From assembly GCA_019637115.1 (NCBI GenBank), contig JAHBWH010000052.1:1-46940 (forward strand): a stretch of DNA of 46,940 nucleotides. The letters run 5' to 3'. Positions 25,380 through 43,942 of the stretch are shown in pieces (position 1 is the stretch's first letter; each line of letters starts with the position of its first letter). The notes beneath the pieces are model-generated. The model was given only the letters and a program-made list of their open reading frames with translations. It searched no databases and was not told the DNA's origin. The position numbers were made by a program, and so were the translations under genes. Source of the stretch: Myxococcales bacterium. Its GTDB lineage: Bacteria > Myxococcota_A > Polyangia > Polyangiales > Houyiibacteriaceae.

Positions 25380-25841
25380 GTGCCTGAGCCCTCGAGCCAC
25401 CTCGAGTCCCCGCCTTCGGGGCGCGCGCGTCGGCGCATCGTCCGCTTCCTCGGCGTGGCGCTCGCGCTTCAGATCCTCGTGCCCTTCACCTACTACGTCC
25501 GCAGCGATCCCTACGACGAGCGCTTCGCGTGGCGCATGTTCTCCGCGGTGCGCCTGCACCGCTGCGCCACCACCGCGACCGAGACGATCGACGGGCGTGA
25601 GCGCGAGATCCCGCTCGCGCGCACGATCCACCAGGCGTGGGCCAACCACCTCTCGCGAAACCGCCGCGACGTCGTCGTCGCCTTCCTGCGCCGACGCTGC
25701 GAAGAAGAGGGCGTGACCCACGTCGAGGTCCGCAACGCTTGCACCACGCCGAGCGGCGTCCCCCTCGCCGCGCAGGTCTACACGCGCGAGTGCGCGACCT
25801 CCGACGTGAGCCTCCCGCGCGCGCTGCAGGTGGCGCCATGA
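25380..25841 (+). CDS. small single-span membrane protein, HTTM-associated
   Basis: 153 residues. After a basic N-terminus (GRARRRIVRF) there is one membrane segment, FLGVALALQILVPFTYYV, and then a soluble domain with DPYDERFAWRMFS. FAWRM resembles the FSWRM stretch that follows the membrane region in vitamin-K-dependent-carboxylase-like proteins. The next gene overlaps its stop (ATGA) and encodes the membrane part, so the pair may be a split version of one fold; this is inference. Starts with GTG. Confidence 0.65.
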   Translation: MPEPSSHLESPPSGRARRRIVRFLGVALALQILVPFTYYVRSDPYDERFAWRMFSAVRLHRCATTATETIDGREREIPLARTIHQAWANHLSRNRRDVVVAFLRRRCEEEGVTHVEVRNACTTPSGVPLAAQVYTRECATSDVSLPRALQVAP

Positions 25842-27727
25842 TCCCGCGCTACTTCTTCGGCTACGTCGACTCCGTCCGCCCTTGGCTCGCCCAGCGCCTC
25901 GTCCTCCTCCTCCTCGCCTTCGACTGCTGGATCGAGCTCATCCCCCACGCAGGCCGCTACGGCTTCGGCGACTTCAACGTCGCGCACTTCGCGCTCCTCG
26001 ACGTCCTCCAACCGCTCCCCTCGCCCGGCACCTACATCGGCGCGGTCGTGCTCGCGGGGACCCTCGCGCTCGTGCAAGCGCTCACGCGGCCGACCCGCGC
26101 CGGCCTCGGGCTCGCCTGCGCCGCGTACACCTACGCGTGGGCGATGAGCATGCTGGACAGCTACCAGCACCACTACCTCCTCTCGCTCGTGCTCTTCGCT
26201 ATGGTCTTCTTCCCGCGGCTGACGAGCGCCGACGTCTTCCCCGTCCCGGGTGATCGAAGCGTCGTGGTCGGAGGCGCGCTGCTCACCTTCGGGCTCGCGG
26301 AGATCGTGCTCGGGCTCACGGGTGCAGAGTCGCCCCTCGGCCTCTTCGGCCCTGGCGCCGCCCTGCCGACGCCAGCTTGGATCTGGCTCGCCCGTGTCGC
26401 CTTGGCCCTCCTCGGCGGCTTGCTCGCCTTCACGCCGAAGTCGGCGACGCAGCCGAAGGCGAGCGCCGGCGCCACCGCGCCGAGCGCGCCGAGCGCGCCG
26501 AGCGCGGCGAAGAGCTCCGAGGACGAGCCGAAGCCGAGAGGCGCGAAGGGACGCGGTCGCAAGGGCAAGAAGCAGAGCAAGCTCCAGCGCGTCGATGACG
26601 CCGCGCCGAGCGAGCGCCCTGGCGTCGTCGTCAGCGCGCCGAAGACCGTCGCTTGGGGCTATGTGCTGCTCGGCACCTCGATCGCGATCGTTTATTTCTT
26701 CACCGCGATCTCGAAGCTCGGCGCCGACTGGCGGGCGGGGCACGCCCTGCGCCGGCTCGGTCACACCCCCTTGCTCGAGGGCCTCGCCTCCCGCGCGACC
26801 ACTGAAGGCCTCCTGCTCTTCGGCCCGATGAGCGAGGCGGCCTTCTGGAAGCTGCTCGCGACGGGCGCCATCCTCACGCAGCTCGCGGCGCTCGTCGGTT
26901 ACCTGCTCGCGAACCGTCAGGACGACGCGCCGCCCAAGCTGCGCCGGGCGATCCTCGCGCTCGGCGTCGCCCCCCTCTCCTTCCACCTGCTCGCGGAGTC
27001 GGGGCTCACGCTCGAGATCGGGTGGTTCAGCTACTACATGATCCTCTTCGCGCTCATCTTCTTCCTCCCCGCGCCGGTGCTCCGAGTGCTCGCCGAGGGT
27101 TGGAGCCTGCCGGCGCGCTGGCTCGCCGCGCGCCCCCTCCCGACAGCCGCCGCGTGGGGGCTCGTCGCCGCCGCGGTGATCGCGCTCGGCGTCGCGGGTC
27201 ACGCCGCGGACCTCCCCGGGGCGCTGGTCGGCGCGGGAATCGCCGCGGCGTTCTTGCTCGGCGACGCGCTCTGGTCCGCCCGCGCGAGCGCGGCCGCCGG
27301 CGCAGACGAGGGTCCGGCCCCGAAGGGCGCGGGCGAGCGCACCACGCGGCACGTCGGCGGCCTCGGCCTCGCCGGCCTGCTCGGCGCGCTCGGCTTCATC
27401 GTGGCCATCTCGCAGAGCGAGGTCCGCTTCGACTACTACCGATTCGTCGGCGGCGAGCACCGTCGGCACGGGAACGTGGCCGAGGCGCTCGAGGCCTACG
27501 AGAAGGCGAACGAGCACGTGCTGCGCCCGCACTGCCTCTACGACGGCCGCCAGCTCGTGTCGTGTCATCGAACCGAGGCGCGCGCCACGGCGCTCGCCGA
27601 GGCCCACGGGCTCACGGTCCGCGCGCGCGATCGGCGCCGCGAAGAGGCCGAGATGCGGATGCGGCTCGAGGCGCGAGATGGTGGCGAGAGCGCGGTGGCC
27701 GCGGACCAGGGCGGCGACGATGGCTGA
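25838..27727 (+). CDS. HTTM / vitamin K-dependent carboxylase-like membrane protein
   Basis: 629 residues with about a dozen membrane segments in two blocks, separated by a Lys/Pro/Ser/Ala-rich cytoplasmic loop (about 205-265). SKLGADWRAGHALRRL, EIGWFSYYMILF and DSYQHHYLLSLVLF resemble HTTM-type transmembrane domains. The C-terminal tail HGNVAEALEAYEKANEHV looks like one TPR. Function is not established; carboxylase chemistry is not proven for this branch. ATG 25838 overlaps the previous stop by four bases, and the next gene starts before its stop, so the three genes are an operon. Confidence 0.7.
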   Translation: MIPRYFFGYVDSVRPWLAQRLVLLLLAFDCWIELIPHAGRYGFGDFNVAHFALLDVLQPLPSPGTYIGAVVLAGTLALVQALTRPTRAGLGLACAAYTYAWAMSMLDSYQHHYLLSLVLFAMVFFPRLTSADVFPVPGDRSVVVGGALLTFGLAEIVLGLTGAESPLGLFGPGAALPTPAWIWLARVALALLGGLLAFTPKSATQPKASAGATAPSAPSAPSAAKSSEDEPKPRGAKGRGRKGKKQSKLQRVDDAAPSERPGVVVSAPKTVAWGYVLLGTSIAIVYFFTAISKLGADWRAGHALRRLGHTPLLEGLASRATTEGLLLFGPMSEAAFWKLLATGAILTQLAALVGYLLANRQDDAPPKLRRAILALGVAPLSFHLLAESGLTLEIGWFSYYMILFALIFFLPAPVLRVLAEGWSLPARWLAARPLPTAAAWGLVAAAVIALGVAGHAADLPGALVGAGIAAAFLLGDALWSARASAAAGADEGPAPKGAGERTTRHVGGLGLAGLLGALGFIVAISQSEVRFDYYRFVGGEHRRHGNVAEALEAYEKANEHVLRPHCLYDGRQLVSCHRTEARATALAEAHGLTVRARDRRREEAEMRMRLEARDGGESAVAADQGGDDG

Positions 27728-29115: not shown

Positions 29116-30249
29116 GTGTCCGCCACCGAGCGAATCCGAGCCGGCAGGCCCATCGAGGTCGTCCGCTTCACCGTCGGCCTCGTGATCGCGTGCGGCGTGC
29201 TGGTGGTGGCGGTCGTCACCTTGCTCGGCCTCTACGCGTCGGATCTCGGAGAGGCGCGCGCGGAGTACCTCGTCGCCGTCGGGCTCGTCACCGCCGTCGC
29301 GTTGCCGCTGGCGGCCTCGACCGCCTGGGTCGCCGGCCGCGACTTCACGAACGACCTGCGGCACGTCGAGGCTGGGCTCGGCAAGCTCTTGGTCGACCCG
29401 GACGCGCCCATCTCGCGTGCCCGCCTCTCGGTGCGGACCCTCGACGAGCTCGGCGGCCTCGTCCGGGCGTTCGACGAGCTCAACGACGCCTTCGACCGAG
29501 CGCTCGAGCGCGAGCATCGCCTGCTCCGCGAGGCCGAGGCCGCCGAGGCCGTGAAGGCGGAGTTCCTCCGCGCCGTCAGCCACGAGCTCCGGACGCCCCT
29601 GAACTCGATCCTGGGCTTCGCCGACGTCCTCCTCACGGAGATCGACGGGCCTTTGACCGCAGAGCAGCACCAGGATCTCTGCATCATCCGCGACGCCGGA
29701 GAGCACCTCATCACGCTCTTCAACGACGTCCTCGACCTCAGCGCCGCTGCGACCAACCAGCTCCGCCTCACGCGCACCTCGCTCGATCCTGGGGAGATCG
29801 TCACCCAGGTGGCCGCCGAGCTCCGCGGCCTGCGCGGGACCAAGCCCGTCGAGCTCGTCGTCCACGTCGGGCCCGACGTCCCGAAGGTGCTCGCCGACGC
29901 GACACGCCTGCGGCAGGTCGTCACCAACCTCGCGAGCAACGCGCTGAAGTTCACCGACGAGGGCGAGGTCCGGCTCGAGGTCGAGCGGAGCCCTTCGGGC
30001 GTCACGATCCGCTGCGTCGACACCGGCGTCGGCATTCAGCCCGAGGCGCTCGGGCGGATCTTCCTCGAGTTCGATCAGCTCGCCGAGACCACCCCCGCGT
30101 CGCGGCGGCGGGGCGGCGCCGGGCTCGGCCTCGCGATCTCGCGTCGGCTCGTGGAGCTCCACGGCGGGACCCTGCGCGCGAGCAGCGTCCCGGGTCGGGG
30201 CTCGGTCTTCGAGGTGCTGCTCCCGAGCGGCTCGGAGGAGTCGGCATGA
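29116..30249 (+). CDS. membrane sensor histidine kinase
   Basis: 377 residues. Two membrane segments (about 14-40 and 55-78) with almost no periplasmic loop, then a HAMP-like helix, HisKA (AVSHELRTPLNSILGF, phospho-acceptor His156) and an intact HATPase: the N-box NLASNALKFTDEG, the G1 box CVDTGVGI, then FDQLAETTP and GAGLGLAISRRLVELHGG. It senses membrane or cytoplasmic signals and autophosphorylates. GTG 29116 is the start. The next kinase gene overlaps its stop (ATGA). No response regulator is adjacent. Confidence 0.92.
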   Translation: MSATERIRAGRPIEVVRFTVGLVIACGVLVVAVVTLLGLYASDLGEARAEYLVAVGLVTAVALPLAASTAWVAGRDFTNDLRHVEAGLGKLLVDPDAPISRARLSVRTLDELGGLVRAFDELNDAFDRALEREHRLLREAEAAEAVKAEFLRAVSHELRTPLNSILGFADVLLTEIDGPLTAEQHQDLCIIRDAGEHLITLFNDVLDLSAAATNQLRLTRTSLDPGEIVTQVAAELRGLRGTKPVELVVHVGPDVPKVLADATRLRQVVTNLASNALKFTDEGEVRLEVERSPSGVTIRCVDTGVGIQPEALGRIFLEFDQLAETTPASRRRGGAGLGLAISRRLVELHGGTLRASSVPGRGSVFEVLLPSGSEESA

Positions 30250-31940
30250 GCGCCCACGACAGCCTCCCGCCCGACCCCTTCTCGATCGCGCCCGTCACGG
30301 GCTCGTTCACCACCCGCCACTTCATGATGCGGGGCTCGAGCCCGCGCGCGCCGTGGCGGTCGCGCGCGTGGCTGCTCGCGATGGGCGTCCTGCTCGCGAG
30401 CGGTGGCGTGCTCGCCGTGATGTTGCTCGCTTGGCTCGCCCTCCCCTTGCCGGCGGGAGGGCTCGCGGGCGTGCTCCGCCTCGAGCTGGCCATCGTCGGC
30501 ATGAACGTCGCGGCGTCGCTCGGCGGCCTCTTGGCGCTGAGCCGCATCGAGAAGCGATGGAAGGGCGGCGCGCCGGGGCCGGTGCAGGACACCTTCGCGC
30601 TCCCCGTGCGCGTGGGTATCGGCGCTGGCGTCGGCGCCACCCTGATCGCGGGCGTGGACGTCATGAGCGGCGGCGCGATCTCGGGCCTCGAGGGGACGAC
30701 CATCCTCGCATGCACGGCCCTCGCGTTCGCGATCCATCAGAACCTCGCCGTCCACCTCGCCTCCGCGTGGCGCCTCGTGCTCTGGCGCGAGTTCCTCTTC
30801 GGGCTCGCGCCGAGCAAGGTCCCCGTGCGCGACCGCCCCCTCCTCGCGCGCCGCTACTCCTGGCGCGTCGCCTCCGCGCTCGCGCTCCTCGGCGGCAGCG
30901 TCCTCGCGGTGCCGCTGGCCTACCAGGCCGAGGGCGCCGCCGATCGCCCCGTGCTCTTCGCCATCGCCGGGCTCACGGTCGTCGCCATCGCGGCCTTCGG
31001 GATCGCGATGGGCTCGCGCATCGGCCAGCGGGTCGCCGCGGACGTCCGGGTCCTGGCGGCGCACGTCCGCAACCTCCGTGACCAAGCCGAGCGGGGTCGC
31101 TCCGTTCCGCCGCCGAGCGGCCAGCTGAACACGACGGTGGGGGAGGCGCTCGCGGCTCGGTCCGCGGCGCTCGCCGAGTACCACGAGGAGCGCGCGCGAG
31201 AGCAGGCCCGCGCGCGCCAGACGGTCGAAGAGACCCAGCGCCTCAAGACGCGCTTCCTCGCGCACATGAGCCACGACCTGCGAAGCCCGCTGCACTCGAT
31301 CACGGGCTTCGCCGAGATCCTCGCCCAAGGGGCCGAGGGGCCCTTAAACGAAGAGCAGCGGGCCAGCGTCGACGCCATCCGCGAGAGCGGCCTCATCCTC
31401 TCGCGCCTCGTGACCGACATCGTGGACACGGCCCGCCTCGAGGCGGGGCGGATGCCGCTCCATCGACAACCGACCGCGCTCGGCCCGCTCATCGACGAAG
31501 CCATCGAGACTGCGCTCGCCGCAGCGCCACGCAAGCCGCTGAAGTTCGAGCGCTTCCTCCCCGACTGGCCGGACTTCGACGTCGACCGCGAGCGGCTCCT
31601 GCAGGCCTTCGTCGGCGTGATCGGCCACGTCGTCCGCATGACCCCCGAGGGCCGCATCGGCATCGAGGGCGAGGACACGATGGACGGACGTGTGCTGATC
31701 CGCGTCGAGGCGCTCGGCCTTCCCCCCGAAGACTCCCAGCGCATCTTCGTCGCCTTCCGCGACATCAAGAAGCCCTCCGGCGTCCGCGAGGGAGGCCTCG
31801 GCCTCGGCCTCGCCCTCGCCCGGAGCCTCGTCGCCGCCCACGGCGGCGAGCTGCTCTACAGCGGCCTCGACATCGGCGGCGCGTGCTTCACGTTCATCCT
31901 CCCCGGCCCGGCGCCGCTCCCGGGCACCGTGCCGCTCTGA
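30246..31940 (+). CDS. histidine kinase-like protein with degenerate ATPase domain
   Basis: 564 residues, about six membrane segments, then a coiled linker and HisKA (HMSHDLRSPLHSITGFAEIL, His343). The ATPase domain is degraded: the N-box position reads GVIGHVVRMTPEG instead of N-x-x-x-N-A-x-K-F, and the G1 aspartate box reads EALGLPPED instead of DTGxGI. The G2 box GGLGLGLALARSLVAAHGG is kept. ATP binding is therefore doubtful, while the His acceptor is intact. It could be a phosphorylation substrate of, or heterodimer partner for, the upstream kinase; this is inference. ATG 30246 overlaps the upstream stop. Confidence 0.85.
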   Translation: MSAHDSLPPDPFSIAPVTGSFTTRHFMMRGSSPRAPWRSRAWLLAMGVLLASGGVLAVMLLAWLALPLPAGGLAGVLRLELAIVGMNVAASLGGLLALSRIEKRWKGGAPGPVQDTFALPVRVGIGAGVGATLIAGVDVMSGGAISGLEGTTILACTALAFAIHQNLAVHLASAWRLVLWREFLFGLAPSKVPVRDRPLLARRYSWRVASALALLGGSVLAVPLAYQAEGAADRPVLFAIAGLTVVAIAAFGIAMGSRIGQRVAADVRVLAAHVRNLRDQAERGRSVPPPSGQLNTTVGEALAARSAALAEYHEERAREQARARQTVEETQRLKTRFLAHMSHDLRSPLHSITGFAEILAQGAEGPLNEEQRASVDAIRESGLILSRLVTDIVDTARLEAGRMPLHRQPTALGPLIDEAIETALAAAPRKPLKFERFLPDWPDFDVDRERLLQAFVGVIGHVVRMTPEGRIGIEGEDTMDGRVLIRVEALGLPPEDSQRIFVAFRDIKKPSGVREGGLGLGLALARSLVAAHGGELLYSGLDIGGACFTFILPGPAPLPGTVPL

Positions 31941-33241: not shown

Positions 33242-35062
33242 GTGCGTCGAGCCGTTCCGACCCCGTCGCCGATGGGCGCCCCCTCGCCGAGCGACGATCC
33301 GCCGGTCCGGACGGGGCGATCCGTCCGCGGGCGCGGCGGCCTCTGGGTCTCGCTCGTGATGCTCTCCGCGTCGCTGCCCAGCGTCGCGCTCGCTTGGACC
33401 GACACGCACGTGCAGACCGCGTCCGCGAGCCTGCGCGTCCACGAGGACGCCTCGGTCGACGTCGCCCTCGTGGTCCGCGTCCAGGTGCGGGGCGGTTGGC
33501 TCGAGAGCCTGGAGATCGCCGGGCTCGATCCGGGGCTCACGGTCGCCGAGGGCTCGATCGACGTCCGCTCGGACGAGGGCGAGCGTTTCCCCGCCCGCGC
33601 GAGCGCCACCGATGACGGACGGGTGACGATCACCTTCCCGCGCCGCGCCGGCCCGCGCCGAGGACACCACACGCTCGCGCTCCGCTATCGGGCCAGCCTC
33701 GCCTCGCGGATCAGCGACGCCCAGGACGATCACGTGCGCGTCTCGTGGACCTTCCCTGGCTGGCAGTCGGGGCTCGACGGCGTGTCGATCGCGATCGACG
33801 CGCCGCGCGGGGCACGCTTCGTCGACGAGGACGACCTGCTCGTGACCCTCGCGCGGGAGCGCGAGGTCCGCGGCGAGCGCGCCATCCTGCGCTGGCGGCG
33901 CGCGCACCTGCCCCGCACCCTCGCCTGGGAGCTGAGCTTCGAGGTCCCGCGCGCCGAGATGACGCTCACCGCCAGCGAGCGGGGGACCGACGGCCGGGAT
34001 CTGGCGCGCGAGCTCGCCGGAGAGCGCTCGGGCGGCGGCGCGCCTCTGAACGATGACGTGAACGATCACGTGCACGATGAGGTCGATCGCGGCGCCGTCG
34101 CGCCGGCCACCCGCAGCGCGGGCTCGACGATCGAAGCGTTCACCGGTCCAGCGCTCGTCGGGCTGCTCTGCCTCGTCGCGCTCTTGCTCTTCGCCCGAGA
34201 GGCGCGCAGCCGGGGCGCTCGCCCGCGTGGCTGGCTCCCCGGGCCGACCACGCTGCGAGCGGGCATCATCGTCTTCGCTGCAGCGGGCGCTGCCCTCTTC
34301 GACGGCCCATCGGCGTGGGCCCTCCTCGCCCTCGCCCCGCTCGCGACGCTCCAGCGGAGCGCGCTCGCCACGACGGCGCGCCTCGGCGTCTGGCAACGGG
34401 CGCGCGCCGCCGATCTCCAGATCGCACGCCGCGCGGGAGGCACTCGCGCGCTCGATCTCGTCGACGCGACGCGACCGCTCGGGCTCCTCGTGCTCGCCGT
34501 GGTGTGGGGCGTCGCGACGCGCGCGCCGGGTGTCGAGCTCGCCCACCTCCTGCTGGGGACTCTCGCCTTCTTCGCCTCGCGGCGACGCCTCCCGGCGCCG
34601 CCCTACGAGCGGCTCGGCGCGCTGCTTCGATACGCGGGCACGCTCCAGCTCCCGGAGGGCGTCGCGGTCGCGCTCGTCGTGCACCGTGACACGCAGGGAC
34701 GCGCGCAGGACGCGCGCCTGCGGCTCGTCACGACCCACCGGCCGAGCGGGACGCTCCGGCTCGACGTCGTGATCGCCGACGAAGAGGGCGGCGGCGGGCT
34801 CGTCGCGATCCCGCGAGGGCTCGTCGTGACGCGCGAGGCGAGCGCCGCAGAGGAGCGCGTGAACGAGGCGCATCCGGGGCTCGTCGCGCGCCGCGGGCCG
34901 GGTGGGCGGCTCGCGCGCTTGGTGGAGCTGGACGCGCTCTTCGCCGTCGCGCGGACGCTCGACGCGCCCGAAGCCCTCGAGGCGCCTCCGACGTCTCGCG
35001 CGAGCCTGGCCGCGTCGCGGGCCAGCGCGCCTCCGATGATGCTCGCTGCGCCGCGGCGCTGA
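33242..35062 (+). CDS. uncharacterised envelope membrane protein
   Basis: 606 residues. A signal or anchor segment (LWVSLVMLSASLPSVALAW, about 34-52) precedes a beta-rich extracytoplasmic region to about 250. Several membrane segments (about 300-460) and a soluble tail that is Ala/Arg-rich at the end follow. The layout recalls DUF2207-like envelope proteins, but I cannot assign a family. GTG 33242 is the first start; ATG 33272 is an alternative. Its stop abuts the stop of the convergent der gene (TGATCA). Confidence 0.7.
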   Translation: MRRAVPTPSPMGAPSPSDDPPVRTGRSVRGRGGLWVSLVMLSASLPSVALAWTDTHVQTASASLRVHEDASVDVALVVRVQVRGGWLESLEIAGLDPGLTVAEGSIDVRSDEGERFPARASATDDGRVTITFPRRAGPRRGHHTLALRYRASLASRISDAQDDHVRVSWTFPGWQSGLDGVSIAIDAPRGARFVDEDDLLVTLAREREVRGERAILRWRRAHLPRTLAWELSFEVPRAEMTLTASERGTDGRDLARELAGERSGGGAPLNDDVNDHVHDEVDRGAVAPATRSAGSTIEAFTGPALVGLLCLVALLLFAREARSRGARPRGWLPGPTTLRAGIIVFAAAGAALFDGPSAWALLALAPLATLQRSALATTARLGVWQRARAADLQIARRAGGTRALDLVDATRPLGLLVLAVVWGVATRAPGVELAHLLLGTLAFFASRRRLPAPPYERLGALLRYAGTLQLPEGVAVALVVHRDTQGRAQDARLRLVTTHRPSGTLRLDVVIADEEGGGGLVAIPRGLVVTREASAAEERVNEAHPGLVARRGPGGRLARLVELDALFAVARTLDAPEALEAPPTSRASLAASRASAPPMMLAAPRR

Positions 35063-38532: not shown

Positions 38533-39321
38533 GTGGACCCGATCCTCACGGTGCTCCGCTTCGGAGACGTCGAGCGCCCGCTCGGCACCTTCGGGCTGTT
38601 GATCGCGTTCGGGATCCTCGTGTCAGCGACGCTCGCGGCGCGCGCCGCCGCGCGCGCAGACATCGACGTCGGGCGCGCCATCGCGGCGTTCGGGTTTACC
38701 GCGGCCGGCAGCCTGGCCGGGGCCTTCACGCTCTTCGTCGCGGTCGAATACTTCCGGACGGGCGCGCTCATCGACCTGCGAACGCAAGGCGGGCTCGTCT
38801 TCTACGGGGCGCCGCTCGGGGGTGGGCTTGCGCTCTGGCTCGCGTGCCGCGCCTTCGGACTGCCCTTCTGGCGCCTCGCGGACGTCGGCGTTCAAGCCAT
38901 CCCCGCGGGCCACGCCATCGGACGCCTCGGCTGCTTCTTCGGCGGGTGCTGCTACGGCCGCCCCTTCGAGGAGGGAGCCGCGCCCTTCTGGGCCGTGCGC
39001 TACACGCACTGGATGGCGCCCGCCGCCGACCCGCCCGTGCTGCGGCACCCCACCCCGCTCTACGAGAGCGGCCTGCTCCTCGCGGTCGCGTTCGCGTTCA
39101 CGCTCCTCCCGCCGAAGCGCGTCGGGACGGGGGCGCGGCTCGGCGCCTATTGCGTCGCGTACGCCCTCGTCCGGTCCACCGTCGAAGCGTTTCGGGGCGA
39201 CACGGTGCGCGGGATCTGGGCCCTCGGGCTCTCCACGTCGCAGTGGCTCTCCGTGCTGACCGCAGCCCTCGGCGTCGTGCTCATGGCCCTCGCGAAGCGC
39301 CAGCCCGTGGAGATCGGATGA
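38533..39321 (+). CDS. lgt: prolipoprotein diacylglyceryl transferase
   Basis: 262 residues, about seven membrane segments, inner membrane. GHAIGRLGCFFGGCCYGRP carries the essential Arg of the GRxGN-like motif; HPTPLYES and the late RGDTVRG, STSQW motifs are also typical. Transfers diacylglycerol to the lipobox Cys of lipoproteins, the first step of lipoprotein maturation. Several lipoprotein genes of this window would need it. Starts with GTG 38533. The last part is duplicated just after the stop. Confidence 0.92.
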   Translation: MDPILTVLRFGDVERPLGTFGLLIAFGILVSATLAARAAARADIDVGRAIAAFGFTAAGSLAGAFTLFVAVEYFRTGALIDLRTQGGLVFYGAPLGGGLALWLACRAFGLPFWRLADVGVQAIPAGHAIGRLGCFFGGCCYGRPFEEGAAPFWAVRYTHWMAPAADPPVLRHPTPLYESGLLLAVAFAFTLLPPKRVGTGARLGAYCVAYALVRSTVEAFRGDTVRGIWALGLSTSQWLSVLTAALGVVLMALAKRQPVEIG

Positions 39322-39375
39322 GCCCCCGGCGTCGTGCGCGTGGCCCTCGCGAAACGGCCGCCGGAGGGTGGACGA
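39271..39375. repeat. 57-bp tandem duplication at lgt 3' end
   Basis: GGCGTCGTGCTCATGGCCCT at 39271 recurs as GGCGTCGTGCGCGTGGCCCT at 39328. The similarity runs on through CTCGCGAA to the GA(T/C)GAGCC end, giving an offset of 57 bp. The second copy contributes the first codons of the next gene in another frame. Confidence 0.85.
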
Positions 39376-40274
39376 GCCGCCTAGCGTCCGCGCGACCAAA
39401 CGGCCTCACCAGCGTCGGCGCGTTGCTCGCGCTCGGGCTCGCGGTCGCGCCTGCGCGCGGGGACGCCGAAGCCGCCACCGCGCTCGTCGAGGCGCTTCCG
39501 CCCACCATTCGGATCGCGGCGGGCTGGTTTCGTCGCGGAAGCGACGAGGTGGACGTCCGGTACGCCCTCTCGCTCTGCGAGCGTGAGCTCGGCTTTCGCG
39601 GGCGGGAGATCTGCCACGAGCCGAGCGTCGCGCTGCTCTTCGAGGCCGAGATGCCCGCCCGCCGGATTCACGTGCGCGCCTTCCGCATCGACCGCACGGA
39701 GGTCACCCGAGCGGCGTGGCGGACGTGCGTGCGCGCGGGCCGGTGCCCCCCCGAGCGAACGCCCGACACCGACGAGCGCCTGGGCGCCCCACAGATGCCG
39801 GTCACTGGGGTGACGTGGGTGGAGGCTCGAGCCTATTGCGAGTTCGTAGGAGGCCGGCTCCCGACCGAGACCGAGTGGGAGCGGGCCGCGCGTGGGGTCG
39901 ACGGTCGACGCTTCCCGTGGGGCAACGCCTGGAACGATCGGCTCGCCAACCACGGCGGCCTCGAAGGGCGCGCCGCGATCGACGGCTTCCGGTTCCTCGC
40001 GCCCGTCGGCAGCTTCCCAGACGGGGCGAGCCCCTTTGGCCTCCTCGACGTCGCGGGGAACGTCTGGGAGTGGACCGAGGATCGCTTCGCGCCCGGCGCC
40101 TACGCGGGCGACCTCGCCGTCGATCCACAAGGTCCGCGCGAAGGCGGAGAGCGCGTCGCGCGCGGCGGCTCGTGGCGGAGCACGGCCGAGCAGCTCCGCG
40201 TCACCACGCGGCGCCCGGTGCCCGAGGGCGCGCACGCGCCAGACCTCGGGCTGCGCTGCGCGTACGACGATTGA
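39318..40274 (+). CDS. SUMF1/FGE-like domain protein
   Basis: 318 residues. An N-terminal signal-like hydrophobic stretch (SVGALLALGLAVAPARGD, about 31-48) is followed by a formylglycine-generating-enzyme-sulfatase fold: RIDRTEVTRAAWRTC, PVTGVTWVEARAYCEFVGG, RLPTETEWERAARG, FPWGNAW, VAGNVWEWTEDRF and ARGGSW. Secreted, so a binding or sugar-associated role is possible; true sulfatase activation is not shown. ATG 39318 overlaps the lgt stop, but codons 4-20 come from the duplicated lgt end, so the native start may be later. Confidence 0.82.
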   Translation: MSPRRRARGPRETAAGGWTSRLASARPNGLTSVGALLALGLAVAPARGDAEAATALVEALPPTIRIAAGWFRRGSDEVDVRYALSLCERELGFRGREICHEPSVALLFEAEMPARRIHVRAFRIDRTEVTRAAWRTCVRAGRCPPERTPDTDERLGAPQMPVTGVTWVEARAYCEFVGGRLPTETEWERAARGVDGRRFPWGNAWNDRLANHGGLEGRAAIDGFRFLAPVGSFPDGASPFGLLDVAGNVWEWTEDRFAPGAYAGDLAVDPQGPREGGERVARGGSWRSTAEQLRVTTRRPVPEGAHAPDLGLRCAYDD

Positions 40275-40949: not shown

Positions 40950-42800
<1,851 letters not shown>

Positions 42801-42967: not shown

Positions 42968-43942
42968 ATGCTTCGTCCGTGGATCGTTCGACTCGCGCTC
43001 GTCACCTCGATCCTCGCGGTCGCGCCCCTCGTCACGCCGCGCGTTGCCCACGCTCAGGCGCCCAGCCGCCAAGTCCGCGAGGCGGCCCGCGAGGCCTACG
43101 CCCGCGGTCAGGAGGCGTTCCGAGACGGCCGCTTCGCCGAGGCGGAGTCAGCCTTCGAGGAGGCCTTTGGCCACATCCCCAACCCGATCGTCCTGCTCGG
43201 GCTCGCCGAGGCACGCGAGCGCCTCGGCAACGTCCCCGGCGCCATCAGCGCGCTCGACGCCTACCTCGTCAACCGCCCCGACGCGCCCGACGCGGACGCG
43301 GTCCGCGACCGCCTCGCGACGCTCCGCGCCACCCCCGGTACGCTCGTGGTCCAATCGGTGCCCGGCGGCGCGGCCGTCCTGCTCGACGGCAGCGACACGG
43401 GGCAGATCACCCCCGCCGAGCTGCAGACGCACCCCGGCCCCCACACCGTGAGCCTCCGGCTCGAGGGGTACGAGCTCGCCGACGCCACCGTCGACGTGGG
43501 CCCGGGCGGCTCGACGGAGGTCGAAGTGGCGCTCACCGCGATGCTCGCCCCCGTCGTCGAGCCCGAGCCCCCCGCCGCGGAGCCGCTCGAGGAGCCGGAG
43601 CCCGAGGTCACCACCCCGGCGTCGACGGGGCCGGGAACGGCCGTCTGGGTCACCTCTGGGATCGCGGCGGCCTCCCTCGTGGGTGGCACCATCCTCGGCT
43701 TCATGGCCCTCTCGCGCCAGGCGCAGTTCGACGACGATCCGATGACCGCGACGGCAAACGAGGGCGACCGCTTCGCGCTCTTCGCCGACGTGCTCTTCAG
43801 CGTCGCCGCGGTCTCTGCGATCACCGCCATCGTCCTCTTCTTGACCCGCAAGAGCCCCGAGGAGCAGCGGCAAGAGCGCGTCCAGATCGCGCCCCACGTC
43901 GGCCCCCGCGGCGGTGGGGTCGGCGCCCGCCTCGTGTTTTGA
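42968..43942 (+). CDS. TPR and PEGA-like envelope protein
   Basis: 324 residues. Signal peptide to about residue 30 (cleavage near AHAQA), then TPR-like helices (ARGQEAFRDGRFAEAESAFE, NPIVLLGLAEARERLGNVPG) to about 115. A PEGA-like beta domain follows (GTLVVQSVPGGAAVLLDGSD, then SLRLEGYELADATVDV), then a Pro/Glu linker and two membrane segments (about 220-240 and 270-293). The PEGA domain often binds surface or glycan partners. Predicted periplasmic with a C-terminal membrane anchor. It may be a substrate or partner of the preceding kinase, but nothing proves this. Confidence 0.82.
   Translation: MLRPWIVRLALVTSILAVAPLVTPRVAHAQAPSRQVREAAREAYARGQEAFRDGRFAEAESAFEEAFGHIPNPIVLLGLAEARERLGNVPGAISALDAYLVNRPDAPDADAVRDRLATLRATPGTLVVQSVPGGAAVLLDGSDTGQITPAELQTHPGPHTVSLRLEGYELADATVDVGPGGSTEVEVALTAMLAPVVEPEPPAAEPLEEPEPEVTTPASTGPGTAVWVTSGIAAASLVGGTILGFMALSRQAQFDDDPMTATANEGDRFALFADVLFSVAAVSAITAIVLFLTRKSPEEQRQERVQIAPHVGPRGGGVGARLVF

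Follow-up and report, generated by a model that had tools for sequence, protein, structure and literature searches.

Histidine kinases are textbook homodimers. In Mycobacterium tuberculosis, Rv0600c/Rv0601c-TcrA is a split kinase whose ATP-binding and phospho-acceptor parts lie on adjacent genes. Two kinase genes are also adjacent in FasB/FasC of group A Streptococcus, whose products are reported to form heterodimers in two-hybrid assays, with no sign of homodimers (PMC12675982). In the same report, the kinase domain of FasC is dispensable and its histidine is required; FasC supplies the membrane sensor part, and the authors propose that it is a pseudokinase (PMC12675982). In this study, we analysed two adjacent histidine kinase genes, HK1 and HK2 (Table 1), in a 46,940-nucleotide stretch of DNA from a Myxococcales bacterium (GenBank assembly GCA_019637115.1, contig JAHBWH010000052.1, positions 1 to 46,940 of the forward strand), hereafter the window. 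We propose that HK1 and HK2 together form a single heteromeric sensor kinase in which the ATP domain of HK1 phosphorylates a histidine of HK2, and we put the probability of this reading at roughly 0.7.

Both proteins carried HisKA followed by HATPase_c, the domain order of a HisKA histidine kinase (Pfam; HK1: HisKA 1.2e-17, HATPase_c 1.7e-27; HK2: HisKA 1.2e-17 at residues 334-401, HATPase_c 9.6e-12 at 447-553). All four boxes of HK1 were present, namely H156 in 'SHELRTP', the N-box 'LASNALKF', 'DTGVGI' and 'GAGLGLA'. In HK2, His343 occupied the exact HisKA histidine position ('MSH343DLRSP') and the G2 box 'GGLGLGLALA' was retained; the N-box 'GVIGHVVRMT' had H at the Asn position, and the G1 box 'VEALGLPPED' was without the Asp and the spaced glycines. 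By the motifs of catalytic competence (H, N, G1 and G2 all intact), HK1 qualified and HK2 did not, and we call HK2 ATP-dead as read from its sequence only. Adjacent genes, one encoding a usable ATP domain and the other a His and no such domain, are the pattern of a heteromeric kinase, and this pattern was found here. A sequence-only reading made before this analysis had described an intact upstream kinase that overlaps by four bases a second kinase with His343 and G2 kept and the N-box Asn and G1 Asp lost, and the motifs and the 4-base overlap bore this out.

The same reading had given HK2 six membrane segments that would supply a separate input. Hydropathy detected five clear segments and a weaker one near residues 145-163 (mean 1.59), and the AlphaFold2 model of HK2 had six helices, mostly of low confidence, ahead of the coiled coil of the dimerisation and histidine phosphotransfer (DHp) domain; a separate input would fit this anatomy, with one of the six segments less certain. 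Two membrane segments were predicted for HK1. In the HK2 model, the mean predicted local distance difference test (pLDDT) score was at least 90 in every ten-residue block of 301-480, 73-85 in 481-520 and 85-96 in 521-560. The DHp and Bergerat folds of HK2 appear to be preserved in this model, and its best solved matches in Foldseek were kinases such as GacS, HK853 and ZraS. The AlphaFold2 model of HK1 alone was unusable (mean pLDDT 45). The NCBIfam matches shown for the pair (the best 25 of 58 and of 80) had only generic kinase names and were all below cut-off.

We searched for relatives first in 37 genomes and then at the level of order (183), class (289) and phylum (377), in genome sets that overlap heavily, and fetched the matching regions after each search. 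Genomes, loci and families are denoted by G, L and f numbers. The 135 locus entries comprised 121 with the pair (G224 twice) and 14 without it: six with HK1 near a contig end (G114, G078, G294, G039, G160, G159), two without HK2 downstream (G133, G134), one fusion (G024), four generic kinases outside the class and one filler. Contigs with HK2 only (G007, G029, G098) were left out. HK1 and HK2 were readable as two tandem genes in 120 genomes. These represent 17 families, of which 16 lie in this class and one, f48, outside it; the number of genomes is conditional on loci with a good match to HK1 or HK2, is no census, and includes 52 genomes of f12. In f1, the pair was readable in 9 genomes, and several small-genome members had no clear match. 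Except for f48, whose pair is taken to be the same one mainly because it shares the MoxR gene, the regions fetched outside the class in the phylum search were generic kinases, and a wider scan of genome contigs yielded mostly kinases of other phyla. Co-occurrence and motif loss in relatives had been suggested as a check by the sequence-only reading, and both recurred in these genomes.

His343 was common to all 13 HK2s of an early alignment (the window and 12 relatives), and the aligned residue was His in 120/120 genomes. The N-box Asn of HK2 was kept in 10/120 and unreadable in 4/120. The commonest state, found in 92 of the 120, was an intact HK1 beside an HK2 with the His and without the Asn. 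Ten genomes (seven of f20, two of f29, one of f14) had an HK1 with intact ATP boxes and no phospho-acceptor His, beside an HK2 with the His and without the Asn; the f14 HK2 ends at a contig end after the N-box. The lost His of HK1 was replaced by V (four times), R (twice), G, K, A or L. When 12 HK1s, six of them His-less, were aligned, no variation was seen at the Glu that follows the His position, at the Pro or at the key residues of the N, G1 and G2 boxes. Both kinases were intact in seven genomes (two of f7, four of f16, one of f27), and HK2 kept the Asn with a broken G1 in two of f7. An intact HK1 stood beside an HK2 with an unreadable N-box in four (a contig end truncates HK2 in G290, the match in G107 covers only the DHp, and G068 and G069 have gaps); the other five are weighed below. 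A reverse split, with HK2 lacking the His or an ATP-degenerate HK1 beside an intact HK2, was found in none of the 120. Where HK1 is without the His and HK2 without the ATP site, neither protein would be expected to work alone.

The residue replacing the HK2 N-box Asn differed across families (H, F, Y, R, T, S, V or A). It was most often H in f1, f3, f8, f10, f14 and part of f12, T, S or V elsewhere in f12, F or Y in f5, f18, f22, f24 and f29, and R in f20; the f48 residue varies with the alignment and was not used. Kinases with phosphatase activity have Thr or Asn four residues after the His. At this position, T was found in 78/118 readable HK1s, and S, A, G or L in 119/120 HK2s, ATP-intact HK2s included. 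The residue next to the His was E in 118/118 HK1s and D in 111/120 HK2s. The specialisation of HK1 and HK2 may thus predate the loss of the HK2 ATP site.

Unpaired kinase domains were used as a control. All 40 complete domains, from 39 related loci, kept the His, the Asn and the G1 Asp; this set was fetched by likeness to HK1 or HK2 and is thus a selected one, and the HK1 half of the fusion was excluded from it. Within that selection, frequent motif loss in the kinases of these genomes can be rejected. An artefact of sequencing or assembly was likewise rejected, as the same state occurred in many genomes, including the one-contig G034, G147, G149 and G166. Double-transmitter open reading frames (ORFs) of genus g2 (L026, L030, L031) were considered as HK1-HK2 fusions and rejected because both transmitters were intact; one of them, read by eye, had a receiver-like stretch between the transmitters.

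We then compared domain constraint as the mean pairwise identity between families for DHp and for the catalytic and ATP-binding (CA) domain, by motif-state group. In the group with the HK2 Asn kept (9 genomes, 2 with G1 broken), DHp/CA identity was 0.54/0.49 for HK1 and 0.54/0.45 for HK2. In the HK2-dead group, it was 0.49/0.45 for HK1 and 0.47/0.28 for HK2, the HK2 CA being less constrained than any of the other three domains. In the group with His-less HK1, which amounts to 14 comparisons of f20 with f29 (f14 drops out, its HK2 being cut), the values were 0.34/0.45 (CA 0.445) for HK1 and 0.48/0.29 for HK2. The doubly degenerate group offered two cross-family comparisons only. Within families, the ratio of CA to DHp identity of HK1 exceeded 1 only in f20 (1.15) and f29 (1.24), and ranged from 0.56 to 0.97 in the ten remaining families that had sufficient members. 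This reciprocal constraint is what would be expected if HK1 supplies the ATP chemistry and HK2 the phosphorylated His and the face on which the regulator docks.

In an 81-row tree with other kinases, HK1s and HK2s shared the same deep split, f7 and f12 against f1, f3, f8, f9 and f10. As this split is the same in both, the two appear to have been inherited together. The HK2s lay to the same side of a branch that had weak support (55/39). The HK1s included four rows entered as other kinases, namely two copies of HK1 (L020 and L025, found on separate contigs of their own or in a genome already listed), the G024 fusion (L019) and the HK1 of G023 (L033_2433). Because f7, in which the HK2 Asn is kept, grouped with f12, in which it is lost, the Asn would have been lost at least twice if it was never regained. 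A later tree had a poorly resolved backbone and a very long branch for G023. On this poorly resolved tree, loss of the HK1 His needed two changes, and the His-less HK1 families may represent one or two events.

Gene order also linked the two kinases. An in-frame ATG or GTG start of HK2 at -4 relative to the end of HK1 was present in 101/120 pairs. In G024, the sole f2 genome sampled, a single 612-amino-acid ORF (L164:58-1893) with one membrane segment contained an HK1 half followed by an HK2 half; H, N and DTGAGI were intact in the first, and in the second the H was kept, N was changed to H and G1 was broken. The genes moxR, TgpA and DUF58 were not found within 18 kb around this fusion. For 107 pairs, 500 bases or more were available downstream; within 2.5 kb, a MoxR-like gene followed HK2 on the same strand in 29 of these pairs, from ten families including f48. 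It was present in all seven f5 pairs, 6/7 of f20 and 1/13 of f18, and no such gene was found within this distance in f1 (9), f7 (4), f10 (1), f12 (45), f16 (4) or f27 (1). Pfam AAA_3 was confirmed in three MoxR-like genes, of which the f27 one lies more than 2.5 kb from its pair. Clusters with AAA_3 genes also held DUF58 (one match over and one under cut-off) and TgpA-type genes, and the moxR-DUF58-TgpA cluster followed the pair in several families (e.g., L247:2-3320 and L250:6851-8005). The window pair has no adjoining moxR, and its genome has 18 AAA_3 matches elsewhere, 11 of them over cut-off. Synteny in relatives thus suggests, at most, that the output of the pair concerns the moxR operon.

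From the motif intactness and loss, the tandem order and overlap, the reciprocal loss and constraint and the one fusion, we infer the following mechanism. HK1 and HK2 would be translationally coupled and would pair through their DHp helices. The CA domain of HK1 would then phosphorylate His343 of HK2 in trans, with HK2 bringing the larger membrane sensor. From HK2, the phosphoryl group would pass to a response regulator, presumably an orphan with its gene at another locus. The window HK1, with its own His and HELRT kept, may also phosphorylate itself or dephosphorylate the regulator; HK2 is without the Thr or Asn that phosphatase activity requires. The suggestion of a heterodimer or phospho-acceptor pair rather than two independent sensors, already made in the sequence-only reading, gains support from the HK2 His, the ten His-less HK1s, the reciprocal conservation and the fusion. 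The fusion and the gene overlap would speak indirectly for heterodimerisation, and phosphotransfer between the two proteins is probable.

Several observations weigh against this mechanism or against its holding for every pair. In 5/120 genomes (G031, G065, G061 and G062 of f9; G023 of f1), HK1 was ATP-degenerate as well, and the HK1-to-HK2 mechanism alone cannot drive these pairs. Their readable DHp histidines were kept, with the HK1 His hidden by a contig edge in two (L046, L078, L079 and L082 of f9; L185:5437-7421); the HK2 of G061 keeps the N-box Asn with G1 broken, and a MoxR gene still follows three of the four pairs in f9. G133 (L221) and G134 (L142) keep an intact HK1 without HK2 directly downstream, HK2 having been looked for only next to HK1 in these genomes; the adjoining gene is ruvB-like by reading of its sequence. 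HK1 seems able to exist alone, and this lineage may have returned to a single kinase. Together with the doubly degenerate pairs, these HK1s argue against a universal obligate pair. The constraint split is no proof of the direction in which phosphate flows. A Pfam scan of 16 proteins of the window detected no response regulator, and weak nucleotide binding by HK2 is possible given the retained G2 and the predicted Bergerat fold. As the window HK1 has its own His, a purely regulatory HK2 is also possible.

Such an allosteric pseudokinase would dimerise with HK1 and tune its activity without being phosphorylated. It would accommodate the lost ATP site of HK2 and an HK1 that, by its sequence, is able to autophosphorylate; DivL is reported to work without kinase activity (PMC4211667) and RetS to control GacS through heterodimerisation (PMC12189002). 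We consider it unlikely, because the HK2 His is kept throughout, the HK2 DHp is about as conserved as that of HK1 in the HK2-dead group, and in the ten genomes with a His-less HK1 the pair would be left without a phospho-acceptor unless the HK2 His serves. These His-less HK1s, which cannot feed a relay through their own His, also speak against HK2 as a phosphotransferase whose His is charged by a receiver protein and not directly by the HK1 ATP domain. A DHp with its His and a degenerate ATP domain is the plan of Spo0B and ChpT, and such a role could account for the five doubly degenerate pairs too. A membrane-bound Spo0B exists (PMC12826061). The recurring neighbours annotated in relatives, which are part of all neighbours, held no receiver, and a direct partnership would agree with the fusion and with the tandem order seen again and again, making this explanation distinctly improbable.

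HK2 might still use ATP through a non-canonical site, as G2 is retained in the window HK2, the CA fold of this protein is confidently modelled and members of f7, f16 and f27 keep the N-box Asn. The variety of residues at the N-box among families and the low constraint of the HK2 CA in the HK2-dead group leave this idea very little room. That HK2 is a decaying duplicate without function is harder still to credit: its ATP domain is relaxed and two genomes are without HK2 beside HK1, but the open frames, the universal His, the conserved DHp, the recurring overlap and the spread over 17 families contradict decay.

Beyond the heteromeric kinase itself, we tentatively propose a wider picture, some part of which may well fail. 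The pair would be an ancient obligate two-subunit kinase of Myxococcota (the class families plus f48), in which ATP use and phospho-acceptance were divided between full-length paralogues. Present-day pairs would show this division to different degrees: two intact kinases, an HK2 that serves only as acceptor, a complete reciprocal split, a fusion into one chain, and a form with both ATP sites degenerate, which must be charged by a third protein or act without phosphate. Its original output would have been the MoxR-DUF58-TgpA envelope operon. The relatives amount to a comparative experiment in which, across many genera, each subunit loses a different one of the two catalytic functions, one at a time. 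With the His-less/ATP-less pairs, the existence of natural obligate heterodimeric kinases and the identity of the phosphate donor could be tested directly, and the pair may provide a handle on the control of moxR operons in myxobacteria. In a literature search, no title or abstract described this myxobacterial pair, subscription papers being mostly outside its coverage so that absence is not proven, and none linked the moxR-DUF58-TgpA cluster to such kinases.

The features of the pair are listed in Table 1. Elsewhere in the window, all on the forward strand, a 606-amino-acid ORF without a Pfam match lies at 33242-35062, and related ORFs were found near the pair in five same-family relatives. 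An open frame with an HTTM domain (PF05090) is at 25637-27727, and an FGE-sulfatase domain protein, a Ser/Thr protein kinase and a PEGA/TPR protein follow one another at 38844-40274, 40950-42800 and 42968-43942.

Table 1. Positions of HK1, HK2 and their sequence features in the window
Feature	Position	Strand	Description
HK1	29116..30249	+	HisKA histidine kinase with two transmembrane segments, 377 amino acids, GTG start; H, N, G1 and G2 boxes intact
HK2	30246..31940	+	HisKA histidine kinase homologue with 5-6 transmembrane segments, 564 amino acids, ATG at 30246; His343 and G2 kept, N-box Asn and G1 lost
ATGA overlap, HK1 stop/HK2 start	30246..30249	+	
HK2 His343 codon (predicted phospho-acceptor)	31272..31274	+	position = 30246 + 3 x 342
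HK2 degenerate N-box GVIGHVVRM, residues 457-465	31614..31640	+	
HK2 degenerate G1 box VEALGLPPED, residues 487-496	31704..31733	+	
HK2 retained G2 box GGLGLGLALA, residues 516-525	31791..31820	+	

Known systems resemble the proposed pair in part. EspA and EspC of Myxococcus are hybrid kinases, one of which phosphorylates its partner protein, as is proposed here; the target is the receiver of EspC, not its His. The Spo0B/ChpT pattern, a DHp with the His and no usable ATP site, was found in HK2 at the motif level only; Spo0B and ChpT receive phosphate from a receiver and are not known to have a dedicated kinase partner gene adjoining. Rv0600c/Rv0601c is one kinase split into parts, whereas HK1 and HK2 each keep both folds. 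DivL of Caulobacter is, like HK2, a pseudo-histidine kinase acting on another kinase; however, its His is replaced (Tyr550) and the remaining boxes are intact, which is the opposite of HK2 (PMC4211667). The DivL-type pattern of a replaced His and kept ATP boxes was absent from HK2 and present in the His-less HK1s of f14, f20 and f29, but beside a His-bearing partner. RetS and GacS are likewise two heterodimerising kinases; they differ in being hybrid kinases and in that the interaction is inhibitory, not a division of labour (PMC12189002). In Corynebacterium, a catalytically dead ChrS variant aids its partner kinase HrrS, as HK2 may aid HK1; this pseudokinase arose in laboratory evolution and its His is dispensable for the benefit (PMC9491836).

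HK1 and HK2 match Pfam HisKA and FasB/FasC are of the HPK10/AgrC-like type, not HisKA; the likeness between them concerns the proposed mechanism. In the FasBC report, the genes are adjacent, one kinase domain is enough and the required His lies on the partner, much as is proposed for HK1/HK2 (PMC12675982). FasBC differs in that the regulator gene fasA is in the same locus (PMC12675982). No regulator gene was found among the 16 window proteins scanned for HK1/HK2. Unlike FasBC, HK1/HK2 extend over many families of a class and occur in graded states, including one with a His-less partner.

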